Shown: positions 33,936 to 37,788 of the stretch, in pieces
Position numbering within the stretch: position 1 is the first letter of the stretch
How the letters are laid out: every line of letters begins with the position of its first letter
DNA from: Propionivibrio dicarboxylicus
GTDB taxonomy: Bacteria; Pseudomonadota; Gammaproteobacteria; Burkholderiales; Rhodocyclaceae
Length of the DNA: 64,000 nucleotides
NCBI RefSeq assembly: GCF_900099695.1
Contig: NZ_FNCY01000005.1
Span: 1 to 64,000 of the forward strand
Direction: 5' to 3'
Position numbers and translations under genes: made by a program
The notes under the pieces: generated by a model
Told to the model about the DNA's origin: nothing
Databases searched by the model: none
The model's input: the letters and a program-made list of their open reading frames with translations, nothing else

Positions 33936-35246
33936 TCAGCGACTGCGCGTAAAAGCCACCGGGTCACCGACGTTGTTTCTGCCGATCAGTCGCTGACCGT
34001 CGCTCGATAGCGTCATGGTGTCGGTATAGCCATGGTTCCAGACGATGACGAATTCGCGCTTGTTCGCATCGGGTCGGCGCCATTGGCAACCGATGCTGAT
34101 GATGAGAAAGCCCTTGTAGGTACAACTCCCGTCCGAAAAAATGTAGACCTGCCCGGGGGCATGCTCGGGGTTCCAGGTGCCGGACAGGTCGATCGGATCC
34201 GCGCTCTGTGCCGGCTGGGCTTGCCGCTCGCCGTCGGCGACCTCGCGTGCCGATGTTGCACTGCCTTGTGCCGTCGCCTGAGTCGTTGTCGGTGTTGCGG
34301 CGTCGCCCTGCAGCTTTTGCTGCACCGCTTTGGCCAGCGTGGCGTAGCGGCTGTTCGGGAAACGCTGCAGATACTGCTCGAAGTCGGTGACGTCGGTGCT
34401 GTGTTCGATGTTTCGCCATTGTGCGATTTCATCCGCGGCCGGATCGGTCGGAGCGGCCTCCGGTATTGGCGGTGGCGCGCTGCCGCTGCCCGGACGGAAA
34501 AAGAAATCGCCGGTCAGCGACGAGGTTTCCCACGGCGTCTGTGCGTCGCCGCTGGCGGCCATGACGCCGATCCGCACCCGTTTGAAGACGGTTTCCAGCG
34601 GCAGGCCGGGCGTCTGGATATGCTTGAGCAATTCCTGCGTGTAGAGGCCGTTGCGGTTGTCGCCGTCGGCGGCTGTCTTGCCTGGGGCGGTGGCGTAGGC
34701 GATCAGGCTGCCCTTGGGCGCGTCCATCTGCGCCAGGCCGCCGCCGACACTGCGGAAGCGACGCTCGAACGGGTTGTTGCGGCAGGCGTCGAGGATGACG
34801 ATGTTCAGCGGACTGATCGTCAGTTGGTCGAGGACGCCGTCCACATCGACGGCCTCGACGCGGACCGAGGCCTCGGACTGGATTTGCGCATCGACCGGGA
34901 TGAGGTAGTTCTTGCCCCGGACCTGCATGCCATGGCCGGCGTAGTAGAAAAGCGCGACCGTGTCGGCGCGCAATTTTTCGCCGAACTGGACGATGGCCCG
35001 ATTCATCTCCTTCTGCGGCACGTTCGTTTTTTCGATGACCTCGAAGCCGAGCTTTCGCAGCGCCGCCGCGACGTCGCGTGCGTCATTGGCCGGATTCTTG
35101 AGCGGGGCATCCTTGTAGGCAGAATTACCGATCACCAGCGCGATGCGCTTCTCGCCGGCGGCAGCTGACATGCCGGTGTTACGGGGCGGTTCGGCGGCCA
35201 CGGCGATACCAATGCAGGCGGCCAGGAAAAGCATCGGGAGTTTCAT
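33936..35246 (-). CDS. Exported caspase-like (peptidase C14) protein
   Basis: A 436-aa protein with a signal peptide (MKLPMLFLAACIGIAVAAEP) and a p20-like caspase domain at about residues 30-250. The catalytic dyad is visible: His in FYYAGHGMQVRGKNYLIPVD and Cys in IVILDACRNNPFE. GNSAYKDAPLKNPANDARD opens the domain. The C-terminal part (about 270-436) is a proline/threonine-rich linker with a short SEL1/TPR-like segment, then a beta-rich tail. I start at 35246, where the signal peptide begins; the open frame to 35852 is not credible. Bacterial caspase homologues of this kind (orthocaspase-like) have mostly unknown substrates. Confidence 0.88.
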   Translation of the reverse strand: MKLPMLFLAACIGIAVAAEPPRNTGMSAAAGEKRIALVIGNSAYKDAPLKNPANDARDVAAALRKLGFEVIEKTNVPQKEMNRAIVQFGEKLRADTVALFYYAGHGMQVRGKNYLIPVDAQIQSEASVRVEAVDVDGVLDQLTISPLNIVILDACRNNPFERRFRSVGGGLAQMDAPKGSLIAYATAPGKTAADGDNRNGLYTQELLKHIQTPGLPLETVFKRVRIGVMAASGDAQTPWETSSLTGDFFFRPGSGSAPPPIPEAAPTDPAADEIAQWRNIEHSTDVTDFEQYLQRFPNSRYATLAKAVQQKLQGDAATPTTTQATAQGSATSAREVADGERQAQPAQSADPIDLSGTWNPEHAPGQVYIFSDGSCTYKGFLIISIGCQWRRPDANKREFVIVWNHGYTDTMTLSSDGQRLIGRNNVGDPVAFTRSR

Positions 35247-35680
35247 GGCGGACTCCAGGCAATCGAGCCAGACCTTCGCTTGACTTGAGCATAGACTCAT
35301 TCGTCCGCTGGCGCTTTCTGTGCCTCCTGCCCGGACCGCCGATCCCGCAACGAATGCACGCTCGTCCGGAATGGGCGCGCGCTTCCCGTCGTCATGCTCT
35401 CCACATGACGGATCGATTCGGGTAGTATTCAGGTCAATGGGTGTCCGTGACTCACAGCGCTTTCCGCTGATTTTCTTCGTCATCACGGGCAGGTAGTCGT
35501 GCTGGTCGGGCCGCCGCACGAGCGTGCGACTGCCCATGTCTCGACGAAATGGCCGGCAGCCTGTTCGGCTGCGCCTCGAATACCCCTTTCCGCGCCGGTC
35601 TCCGCGACCGGCCTGCGCTCGGCTCCTCGCCTTCATACGCCGGCAAATCGTGCGCCGCTCCCGTCTGCCGCCTGTCTGCT
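35247..35680. other. Intergenic region upstream of the caspase-like and nhaD genes
   Basis: No gene recognised. It carries the leftward promoter region of the caspase-like gene and the start of the long nhaD leader. A perfect hairpin CGCACG-AG-CGTGCG lies at 35515-35528. Open frames crossing this region on the plus strand have no ribosome site and no membrane or domain features until the nhaD start. Confidence 0.4.
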
Positions 35681-35790
35681 GCCGCCCGGTGTGTTCCGGG
35701 TCCGGCGCCGTCGGATGCGCGATCGCGATTCCGGCAGCTACCGCTTCCTTTGTCCCACCCATTGCCACCCCTGTTTGCGGAGGATCTGTC
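35681..35790 (+). promoter_or_regulatory. Structured 5' leader of nhaD, riboswitch candidate
   Basis: Directly before the nhaD ribosome site (GGAGG, 35779-35783). Stem 1: GCCG and CCCGG (35681-35689) pair with CCGGG (35696-35700) and CGGC (35703-35706). Stem 2: GCCG (35707-35710) pairs with CGGC (35732-35735), enclosing an inner GC-rich hairpin. An unpaired-looking pyrimidine-rich segment follows, with GCAGCTACCGCTTCCTTTG and CCCACCC. Antiporter genes are known to be preceded by cation-sensing RNAs (the nhaA-I motif, a Li+ riboswitch class, and Na+ riboswitches). I could not compare with those alignments. Confidence 0.4.
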
Positions 35791-35792
35791 AG

Positions 35793-37076
35793 ATGTTGAT
35801 GTCGCTCGTCATGATTTTCGTGGTCTCCTATGCCGCCATTGCGCTGGAGCACCCTCTTCGGATCAACAAGTCGGCGTCAGCCCTGGTCGGGGCGGGACTC
35901 CTATGGACCATTTATGCGCTGGCGGGAGGTGATGCTCACCGGATCGGCGAGGAGTTGGGCGAATCGGTCATGGCGACGGCGCAGATCGTCTTCTTCCTGA
36001 TGGGGGCGATGACGATCGTCGAAGTGGTCGATGCCCACAACGGCTTTGAAGTCATCACCAAGCGCATCCGGACATCGAAGCTGTCGTCGTTGATGTGGCT
36101 GGTCGGCTTCGTGACGTTTTTCCTGAGTTCGGTGCTGGACAACCTGACCACCACGATCGTCATGATTTCGCTGATGCGCAAGCTGCTTGCCAGGCACGAC
36201 GATCGCCTGTTCTTTGCCGGGATCATCGTCATCGCCGCCAACGCTGGCGGCGCCTGGTCACCGATTGGCGACGTGACCACGACCATGCTCTGGATCGGCG
36301 GGCAGATCACGACGCTGGCGATCATGAAGTCGGTCTTCGTCGCCTCCATCATCAGCATGGTCGTGCCCCTGGCCGTGACCGCCTATTGCTTGCGCGGCAG
36401 ACTGGTTGAGGCACCCGGCTTCGATGGCGGCGATGATGGCAGGCAGACCAGCGTATTCGAACGTAATCTGATGTTCTTCATGGGAATCGGCATCCTCGTC
36501 GCCGTTCCCGTCTTCAAGACCGTGACCCACCTGCCGCCGTTCATGGGCATCCTTTTCGGTCTCGGTATCCTCTGGCTGACCGGTGATCTGGTGCATCGCA
36601 AGAAGGCCGAGGAAAGCAAACATCGCCTGACGCTGGTTCATGCGCTCAGCCGCATCGACATGAGCTCGATCGTTTTTTTCATCGGCATCCTGCTCGCCGT
36701 GGCGACGCTGGAGCATACTCATATCCTGACGTCATTGGCGCAGTGGCTGGATCTCGCCGTTGGGCGGCAGGATGTCATCGTCCTGATCATCGGCCTCGTC
36801 AGCGCCGTGGTCGACAACGTGCCCCTGGTCGCCGCGGCGATGGGGATGTACGGCCTTGAGCGCTATCCGACCGATCACTTTCTCTGGGAATTCCTCGCCT
36901 ACTGCGCCGGGACGGGCGGTTCGATCCTCATCATCGGCTCGGCCGCCGGCGTTGCGGCGATGGGCCTCGAGAAGATCCACTTCTTCTGGTACATGAAGAA
37001 GATCAGCTGGCTGGCCTTGATCGGCTATTTCGCCGGTGCGGGGGCCTATCTGTTGCAGTACCGGATGTTCCATTGA
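35793..37076 (+). CDS. nhaD: Na+/H+ antiporter, NhaD type
   Basis: A 427-aa inner-membrane antiporter of the NhaD branch of the ion transporter superfamily. It starts with two helices (MLMSLVMIFVVSYAAIALEH), and the core motifs include FFLSSVLDNLTTTIVMISLM and NAGGAWSPIGDVTTTMLWI in the first half and SAVVDNVPLVAAAMGMY and GTGGSILIIGSAAGVAAMG in the second. The D-N pairs in the two hairpins are the expected ion-site residues. GGAGG lies 9 nt before the ATG at 35793. The gene stands alone between a long structured leader and a bidirectional terminator. NhaD exchanges Na+ or Li+ for H+. Confidence 0.93.
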   Translation: MLMSLVMIFVVSYAAIALEHPLRINKSASALVGAGLLWTIYALAGGDAHRIGEELGESVMATAQIVFFLMGAMTIVEVVDAHNGFEVITKRIRTSKLSSLMWLVGFVTFFLSSVLDNLTTTIVMISLMRKLLARHDDRLFFAGIIVIAANAGGAWSPIGDVTTTMLWIGGQITTLAIMKSVFVASIISMVVPLAVTAYCLRGRLVEAPGFDGGDDGRQTSVFERNLMFFMGIGILVAVPVFKTVTHLPPFMGILFGLGILWLTGDLVHRKKAEESKHRLTLVHALSRIDMSSIVFFIGILLAVATLEHTHILTSLAQWLDLAVGRQDVIVLIIGLVSAVVDNVPLVAAAMGMYGLERYPTDHFLWEFLAYCAGTGGSILIIGSAAGVAAMGLEKIHFFWYMKKISWLALIGYFAGAGAYLLQYRMFH

Positions 37077-37142
37077 GCGGTGCCAGCCCGGACGGTGAAT
37101 GTCCCCGGGATGTTCGCCGTCGGGGTCGGTGGTCGCACAATG

Positions 37143-37171
37143 AAAAGAGGGCGCCGGAAGCACCCTCTTTT
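37143..37171. terminator. Bidirectional terminator between nhaD and sodB
   Basis: AAAAGAGGG (37143-37151) pairs perfectly with CCCTCTTTT (37163-37171). The stem has T-runs on both strands, suiting the convergent nhaD and sodB transcripts. Confidence 0.8.
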
Positions 37172-37203
37172 GTCTCGGAATTGCGTGTTGTCAGTGGCGT
37201 CGC

Positions 37204-37788
37204 TCAGCCGAAGTTCTTCTCGGCGAAGCTCCAGTTGGCGAGGCTGGTCAGGAAGGTTTCGACGAATTTCGGACGCAGGTTGCGGTAGTCGATGTAATAA
37301 GCATGTTCCCAGACGTCGATGCACAGCAGCGCCTTGTCGCCGGTGGTCAGCGGCGTGCCGGCGGCGCCCATGTTGACGATGTCGACCGAGCCGTCGGCCT
37401 TCTTGACGAGCCAGGTCCAGCCTGAGCCGAAGTTGCCGACCGCGGAAGCCTGGAAGGCCTTCTTGAACTCGTCGAACGAGCCCCACTTCTTGTTGATCGC
37501 TTCGGCCAGCGCGCCGCTCGGGGCGCCGCCGCCGTTCGGCTTCAGGCAGTTCCAGAAGAAGCTGTGGTTCCAGACCTGGGCCGAGTTGTTGTAGATGCCG
37601 CCGGCCGGCGCCTTCTTGACGATGGCTTCGAGGTCGAGGGCTTCGTATTCGGTGCCTTTGATCAGGTTGTTGAGGTTCGTGACATAGGCCTGGTGGTGCT
37701 TGGCATAGTGATATTCGAACGTTTCCTTGGACATGTGGGGCGCCAGCGCGTCGATGGCATACGGCAGTTGCGGCAGTTGGTGTTCCAT
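37204..37788 (-). CDS. sodB: Iron superoxide dismutase
   Basis: A 194-aa cytoplasmic Fe-type superoxide dismutase, converting superoxide to H2O2 and O2. The N-terminus (MEHQLPQLPYAIDALAPHMS) and FEYHYAKHHQAYVTNLN carry the first metal His. FFWNCLKPNGGGAPSG and AAGTPLTTG favour the Fe-type over Mn. The DVWEHAYYIDY motif supplies the last Asp and His ligands. I start at 37788, where AAGGAGAAACC precedes the ATG; the frame extends to 37842 without support. It follows xseA by 50 nt on the same strand. Confidence 0.95.
   Translation of the reverse strand: MEHQLPQLPYAIDALAPHMSKETFEYHYAKHHQAYVTNLNNLIKGTEYEALDLEAIVKKAPAGGIYNNSAQVWNHSFFWNCLKPNGGGAPSGALAEAINKKWGSFDEFKKAFQASAVGNFGSGWTWLVKKADGSVDIVNMGAAGTPLTTGDKALLCIDVWEHAYYIDYRNLRPKFVETFLTSLANWSFAEKNFG

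Follow-up and report, generated by a model that had tools for sequence, protein, structure and literature searches.

A Li+-I riboswitch that may regulate a distant nhaD gene through a leader open reading frame in Propionivibrio dicarboxylicus

Introduction

In the 64,000-nucleotide stretch of Propionivibrio dicarboxylicus DNA analyzed here (the window), nhaD is preceded by a long leader, which raises the question of which element of this leader could regulate the antiporter gene and how its signal could reach a start codon so far downstream. A preliminary description had placed a structured leader RNA built of two GC-rich stems at 35681-35790 (the flagged segment), and regarded it as either a known cation riboswitch or a candidate new class. 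One known class found next to antiporter genes is nhaA-I, for which the original motif paper is reportedly Weinberg 2017. According to the main text of a later study, this class is now named Li+-I, and in-line probing and reporter assays showed that Li+ switches gene expression on; nhaD is listed as an occasional partner, with one triple array lying ahead of an nhaD gene, and the authors suppose that most Li+-I switches govern ribosome access to the adjoining gene (PMC9646797). The same text describes two relatives of this class: Na+-I (DUF1646), with a consensus similar to that of Li+-I and common gene partners including nhaD, and Na+-II, comprising rare nhaA-I variants (PMC9646797).

Results

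A Li+-I aptamer lies well upstream of nhaD

An Rfam scan of the whole window revealed a single RNA family at its gathering threshold, nhaA-I, and this aptamer was also the sole RF03057 match in the genome at E ≤ 0.001 (Table 1). It lies on the same strand as nhaD and ends 162 nt upstream of the flagged segment and 274 nt upstream of nhaD. The alignment contained the features of the class, namely a GGGUG 5′ end, P1, a CAGGU linker and a P2 with a UGGUCGGGCCGCC loop, with one gap in P2 giving one marked non-standard pair, and a monovalent cation transporter, NhaD, is encoded downstream as expected of nhaA-I. Judged by these features, the element is a Li+-I (nhaA-I) aptamer, for which selective Li+ binding and activation are predicted from the class. 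The preliminary description, in expecting a cation riboswitch before nhaD, was thus right about the class and wrong about the position, since the aptamer sits outside both the flagged segment and the range proposed for an Rfam check (35640-35795); the element (44 bits, gathering 37) is no candidate new class, and the link to nhaD is not new, this partnership having been published.

The related Na+ classes were also considered. Among the Rfam matches with E ≤ 10 in 35380-35800 there was none to Na+-I (DUF1646), for which the model library presumably includes a model, and nhaA-I alone reached gathering score window-wide. The hallmarks of Na+-II are a C replacing the common U at the specificity position and a terminator platform. 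As read in the Rfam alignment, the P2 loop letters of the window are those of the nhaA-I consensus, and the terminator scan returned three intrinsic terminator sites versus 2.1 expected, one of them within the P1 loop. A promoter scan of 35240-37220 returned no site of the promoter types that it covers.

The gene call itself held up well. NhaD matched TIGR00775 with an E value of 4.7e-121, but with 404.5 bits, under the model cut-off of 577.1, and passed the NF038006 cut-off of 80 with 147.7 bits. Divergent from the nhaD leader is a gene on the minus strand (33936-35246) for a caspase-domain (Peptidase_C14) protein, with a weak PADLOC "caspase" match.

Table 1. Features of the nhaD leader and gene (window coordinates).
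Feature	Position	Strand	Description and evidence
nhaA-I / Li+-I riboswitch aptamer (RF03057)	35439..35518	+	cmscan 44.0 bits, gathering 37, full model 1-55
Predicted alternative hairpin	35487..35535	+	Breaks the aptamer; GGGCAG/CUGCCC pairing just before the leader AUG; candidate ligand-free state; from the MFE fold of 35437-35560
Leader ORF, ATG start, 87 codons	35536..35799	+	Start 18 nt past the aptamer; TGA at 35797-35799
C-rich, G-poor spacer, rut-like	35536..35792	+	C 0.39, G 0.28; candidate Rho-sensitive region if untranslated
Flagged segment	35681..35790	+	Read as 3′ codons of the leader ORF, not as a separate RNA element; z −1.01; 68/110 identity with G105
Shine-Dalgarno GGAGGA of nhaD, within the leader ORF	35779..35784	+	Anti-SD duplex −9.5 kcal/mol
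ATGTTGA, overlap of nhaD start and leader stop	35793..35799	+	Sequence reading
nhaD, NhaD-type Na+(Li+)/H+ antiporter, 427 aa	35793..37076	+	TIGR00775, NF038006, CitMHS PF03600

The flagged segment resembles ordinary sequence within an open reading frame

The letters quoted in the preliminary description are present (GCAGCTACCGCTTCC at 35734-35748), and 35681-35706 and 35707-35738 can each be drawn as a GC-rich hairpin. Their stability is nevertheless that of shuffled sequence: the segment had an MFE of −41.4 kcal/mol versus a shuffle mean of −38.0 (z −1.01), with 32 of 200 shuffles equally stable, and the fold of the entire leader (35430-35830) was also ordinary (z −0.91). None of the 4227 Rfam models produced a match overlapping the segment in a search of 35500-35900 with E values up to 10. 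Conservation was examined against G105, the sole same-genus genome with the motif among the genomes searched, whose NhaD is 97% identical. Ungapped identity was 85/109 in the upstream stretch, 77/80 in the aptamer, 18/20 just after the aptamer, 110/142 over the initial portion of the leader, 68/110 in the flagged segment and 276/298 in early nhaD, so that the flagged segment ranked last among the six stretches. The idea that the two stems form a regulatory RNA element of their own, or define a new class of riboswitch, is largely refuted by the ordinary fold, the low conservation and the Rfam result; the spacer that would have to contain such an element also ranges in length from 60 to 334 nt across loci, and we give this explanation next to no weight despite the two drawable hairpins.

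Nor did the segment appear to be plain untranslated leader, since it falls within an open reading frame that extends from 35536 to 35799. We infer that it is part of the relay proposed below and not a ligand-binding RNA.

The leader ORF connects the aptamer to the nhaD start

The start codon adjoining the aptamer is the ATG of this leader ORF, which by position only is placed like the starts of genes directly following other nhaA-I aptamers, and its stop overlaps the nhaD start; thus, the two marks of a translational relay, an upstream ORF beginning beside the aptamer (35536) and a stop overlapping the downstream start (ATGTTGA at 35793), are both found. An alternative in-frame GTG at 35524 would extend the ORF to 91 codons. 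The Shine-Dalgarno sequence of the leader start is weak (−3.4 kcal/mol) in comparison to the strong one of nhaD. Because nhaD has a strong site of its own, coupling of the leader stop to the nhaD start need not be obligatory, and this combination of sites makes strict coupling less likely than Rho shielding or reinforced re-initiation.

The sequence of the leader peptide appeared to matter little. Between the window and G105, the one close pair compared, the leader ORFs differ without gaps by 22 substitutions at first codon positions, 28 at second and 25 at third, and this equal spread suggests that the open frame is kept and the peptide is not; the peptide looks to be without apparent conservation in this pair. 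The window peptide had no Pfam match, and leader ORFs lacked the GC3 signature of coding sequence, with GC of 0.68/0.60/0.66 by codon position versus 0.59/0.40/0.82 in genes. It is therefore very improbable that the peptide acts as a sensor or has a function of its own, as an arrest peptide or small protein would: the presence of leader ORFs in the 25 matching loci described below would be in keeping with such a role, but their lengths range widely, from 14 to 102 codons, and the even substitution pattern and the Pfam result also speak against it.

Leader ORFs end at the next gene start across many nhaA-I loci

For comparison, nhaA-I loci were collected from overlapping samples of the window's family (22 of 150 and 50 of 395 genomes), order (21 of 399) and class (7 of 369), together with the best 80 of the nhaD loci listed in named records. 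All six nhaA-I loci found by pattern in the named records exceeded the Rfam cut-off. The distinct nhaA-I/nhaD loci numbered 20, to which four more (L157, L178, L180 and L182) were added to make 24. Four of these are direct, with nhaD starting 17, 18, 24 and 28 nt past the aptamer (L096, L182, L157 and L019, respectively), and 20 have a long spacer.

In the nhaD set, where the leader start was taken as the first ATG or GTG 10-25 nt past the aptamer, 16 of the 18 long-spacer loci had a frame ending between −25 and +10 nt relative to the nhaD start, and in 15 the distance was no more than 7 nt. Dinucleotide-preserving shuffles of the spacers gave an expectation of 7.1 of 18 (P 5e-8), which is high because the shuffles keep the spacer length and hence both the frame and the stop contributed by the first nhaD codons; the other two frames gave 5 of 36. 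A wider set that included other genes was composed of 32 long-spacer loci from 80 nhaA-I loci, after 31 direct genes were set aside, and used a start rule preferring 17-20 nt within 11-25 nt. Here 25 of 32 leader ORFs ended at the next gene start, 24 of them within 7 nt. The expectation was 12.4 for a fixed frame (P 3e-10) and 6.7 for a random one (P 7e-14), and the other frames gave 11 of 64. Restricting the set to one locus per genus and gene family left a median of 19 of 25 (P at most 3e-7).

The seven misses were L005, L011, L018, L072, L143, L150 and L174, with L011 a match under the start rule of the nhaD set. L104, from Dechloromonas sp. CZR5, fell outside the wider set through the script pattern; it is a match in the nhaD set and is included in the start-site count below. 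Loci not counted were L144 (no start codon at the site, which would be a miss), L159, L162, L168 and L171 (ambiguous main start, broken gene or contig end), L022, L151, L155 and L184 (weak matches lacking a matching gene), L179 (the same locus as L072), and L017, L164, L167, L173, L177 and L181 (no GGGTG, before a Cys-rich protein). The closely similar leaders of L005 and L007 come from two genera; the 102-codon leader ORF of L007 ends 5 nt before the gene, and that of L005 is shortened to 62 codons by a frame-changing difference.

A deeper search of a further family, with the motif in 56 of 171 genomes, gave 53 new loci, of which 43 are direct (gene start mostly 17 nt past the aptamer), nine were tested as long-spacer loci and one (L238) was left out. 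This family had been sampled earlier as L137, L141, L143 and L145, none of which is among the 53. Six of the nine matched, with L199, L207 and L230 the misses, versus 3.5 expected with the frame fixed (P 0.03), 1.6 with the frame random (P 7e-4) and 0 of 18 in the other frames; the main starts of L187, L192, L196, L235 and L236 were chosen by eye after the sequence had been seen, which favors the relay reading. Taken alone with the frame fixed, the later nine loci are weakly significant. Two more families (four and five genomes) contributed no new locus.

Leaders of this type were not limited to nhaD: genes for an unclassified protein, for PF00999 exchangers and of the Na_H_antiport_3 family also have them, in several cases with an ATGA overlap. 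At three loci (L021, L138 and L175) the start of the following gene is nearly devoid of a Shine-Dalgarno sequence.

Comparison to nhaD genes lacking the aptamer showed that such ORFs also arise by chance. An ORF of at least 23 codons ended within 7 nt of nhaD in 23 of 79 aptamer-less loci, versus 17 of 20 aptamer-bearing ones, and among these 17 L019 is a direct gene. ATGxTGA was also present at 36 of 79 aptamer-less nhaD starts, so that the first nhaD codons themselves account in part for a leader stop at this position. An Rfam scan of 34 of the about 80 aptamer-less controls found no RNA family at gathering score; the remainder were classed as aptamer-less by the core pattern alone.

A start codon recurs about 18 nt past the aptamer

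Because both start rules were limited to 10-25 nt, the start positions of the matching loci (13-20 nt) are bounded by construction, and the site was also examined by an unbounded count. Of 42 long-spacer loci, 33 earlier and nine later, 31 have an ATG or GTG 17-20 nt past the aptamer, whereas background 4-nt windows at 25-60 nt contain one in 2.3 loci on average and in 5 at most; the later loci alone gave seven of nine. Directly regulated genes start 17-37 nt past the aptamer, with a median of 19.5 (30 offsets entered by hand, L154 omitted). This shared position suggests that the same site serves either a gene or a leader ORF.

These results bear on the simplest alternative, in which an ordinary Li+-I switch with a long 5′ UTR reaches nhaD by another route and the leader ORF arises incidentally from GC-rich sequence with few stops together with the ATGxTGA at the nhaD start. 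The 12.4 of 32 loci produced by fixed-frame shuffles alone, the unconstrained peptide of the window/G105 pair and the strong Shine-Dalgarno sequence retained by nhaD are all compatible with it. We nevertheless consider it unlikely, given the excess of 25 of 32 over the 11 of 64 in the other frames, the start codon at 17-20 nt and the recurrence of the layout, ATGA overlaps included, before other genes.

Spacer composition is consistent with a contribution from Rho

Long spacers were richer in C than in G, with a mean C>G skew of 0.188 (18 spacers) versus 0.009 in the regions preceding 80 nhaD genes that lack the aptamer (P 1e-7), and the skew of the spacer was above that of its own gene in 31 of 32 loci. 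A control within the family had a skew of 0.08 (13 loci), indicating that the contrast is partly one of lineage and is smaller inside the family. The genome encodes a Rho RNA-binding domain.

This composition raises the possibility of attenuation by Rho only, with the leader ORF a mere ribosome shield over a rut-like region and nhaD translated independently from its own Shine-Dalgarno sequence, which is strong in the window and in several relatives. A pure shield need not stop exactly at the next start, yet 24 of 32 leader ORFs do so within 7 nt, and at L021, L138 and L175 there is almost no Shine-Dalgarno sequence from which independent translation could begin. On balance, we view Rho-only attenuation as a possible explanation but not a probable one.

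A proposed relay from Li+ to nhaD

We propose that the Li+-I riboswitch controls the distant nhaD gene via the leader ORF, a reading that we put at roughly 70%, with the mechanism inferred from sequence and comparison. In the absence of Li+, the leader start would be closed by pairing with aptamer sequence, and binding of Li+ would release it, as in the published Li+-I switches of the ON type. Ribosomes would then translate the leader ORF, and nhaD would be turned on by re-initiation at the overlapping stop and start, by covering of the C-rich RNA against Rho termination, or by both.

A candidate for the closed state is the alternative hairpin predicted to break the aptamer (Table 1). The MFE fold from which it derives is no more stable than shuffles (z 0.20). 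Of 64 loci, 34 have CCC immediately ahead of the controlled start, and a partner-swapping test between the 5′ GGGUG of the aptamer and the bases before the controlled start (CACCC) gave a weak signal (P 0.02) in 64 of 80 loci, 15 having been left out by choice and one having no P1 match.

More generally, the aptamer may act as a module that controls one start about 18 nt downstream, either that of an antiporter or that of a leader ORF for an arbitrary peptide, with the signal then carried over 60 to 330 nt to antiporter and other genes by stop-start overlap and Rho shielding. Such a relay would occur in the window's order (Burkholderiales) and in some Alphaproteobacteria (L057 and L065, the latter from Paramagnetospirillum caucaseum SO-1), and orthologous nhaD genes would have acquired or lost it. 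We judge this broader version to be somewhat better than an even bet. Gain or loss between orthologs would mean that a distant gene can acquire the riboswitch without a new expression platform.

Variant nhaA-I loci

Several loci departed from the common pattern. The six loci set aside for lack of GGGTG in their 5′ halves (L017 and its like) match RF03057 and precede a roughly 157-aa protein that carries KPCSKCKGEM close to its N terminus and in L017 had no Pfam match; these loci may represent an aptamer variant that has a different ligand or gene program. A subgroup of L159, L187, L192, L196 and L230 has GGGTTT 5′ halves. Within it, L230 lies upstream of a relative of the L016 antiporter, and the leader ORFs of L187, L192 and L196 end 4, 10 and 4 nt beyond the next start, respectively, with downstream genes matched by no search. 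At L165, nhaA-I is followed by a 14-codon leader ORF (ATGA overlap) and then a protein with no Pfam match in its first 260 residues. In L235 and L236, both from one genus, the order is nhaA-I, a 34-codon leader ORF, an ORF of about 105 aa (ATGA overlap) and an nhaA-like gene, a layout that is a possible three-part relay.

Discussion

The aptamer and the partnership of nhaA-I with nhaD are already known, and in both the antiporter partner and the listing of nhaD the published Li+-I examples are like the locus described here (PMC9646797). The published view differs in that control is exerted at the adjoining gene, whereas in the window the adjoining start is that of the leader ORF and the antiporter is 274 nt away (PMC9646797). 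In the Li+-I literature searched, the main text of that paper included, we found no upstream ORF, leader ORF, coupling or Rho, the word "leader" occurring in the main text only within a reference title (PMC9646797). Apparently new is the anatomy between aptamer and nhaD, a proposed leader-ORF relay for Li+-I for which the evidence is comparative.

Leader ORFs have a comparable part in Rho-controlled leaders of the mgtL and corL type, where their translation decides Rho termination within the leader. In contrast to these, the translation signal in the window would come from a Li+ aptamer, and the link to Rho is drawn here from composition.

A precedent is ppe2 of Mycobacterium tuberculosis, for which a B12 riboswitch has been shown to open or close an upstream ORF (uPPE2) whose stop overlaps the ppe2 start, ppe2 expression requiring translation of this ORF (PMC11260477). 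Both loci thus have a short upstream ORF beside a riboswitch and a stop overlapping the main-gene start (PMC11260477). The two differ in ligand and aptamer; ppe2 is under an OFF switch with experiment-backed termination-reinitiation, whereas the window would have an ON switch by class (PMC11260477). In addition, ppe2 is without its own Shine-Dalgarno sequence, in contrast to the GGAGGA of nhaD (PMC11260477).

If the proposed relay is correct, it would explain how a Li+ aptamer regulates a gene hundreds of bases away with no obvious expression platform there, and it would add a further independent riboswitch-upstream ORF relay beside the M. tuberculosis case. Orthologous nhaD genes with and without a leader ORF would offer a natural comparison. 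Annotation that looks only for an adjoining gene or a terminator would misread such leaders as empty UTR.
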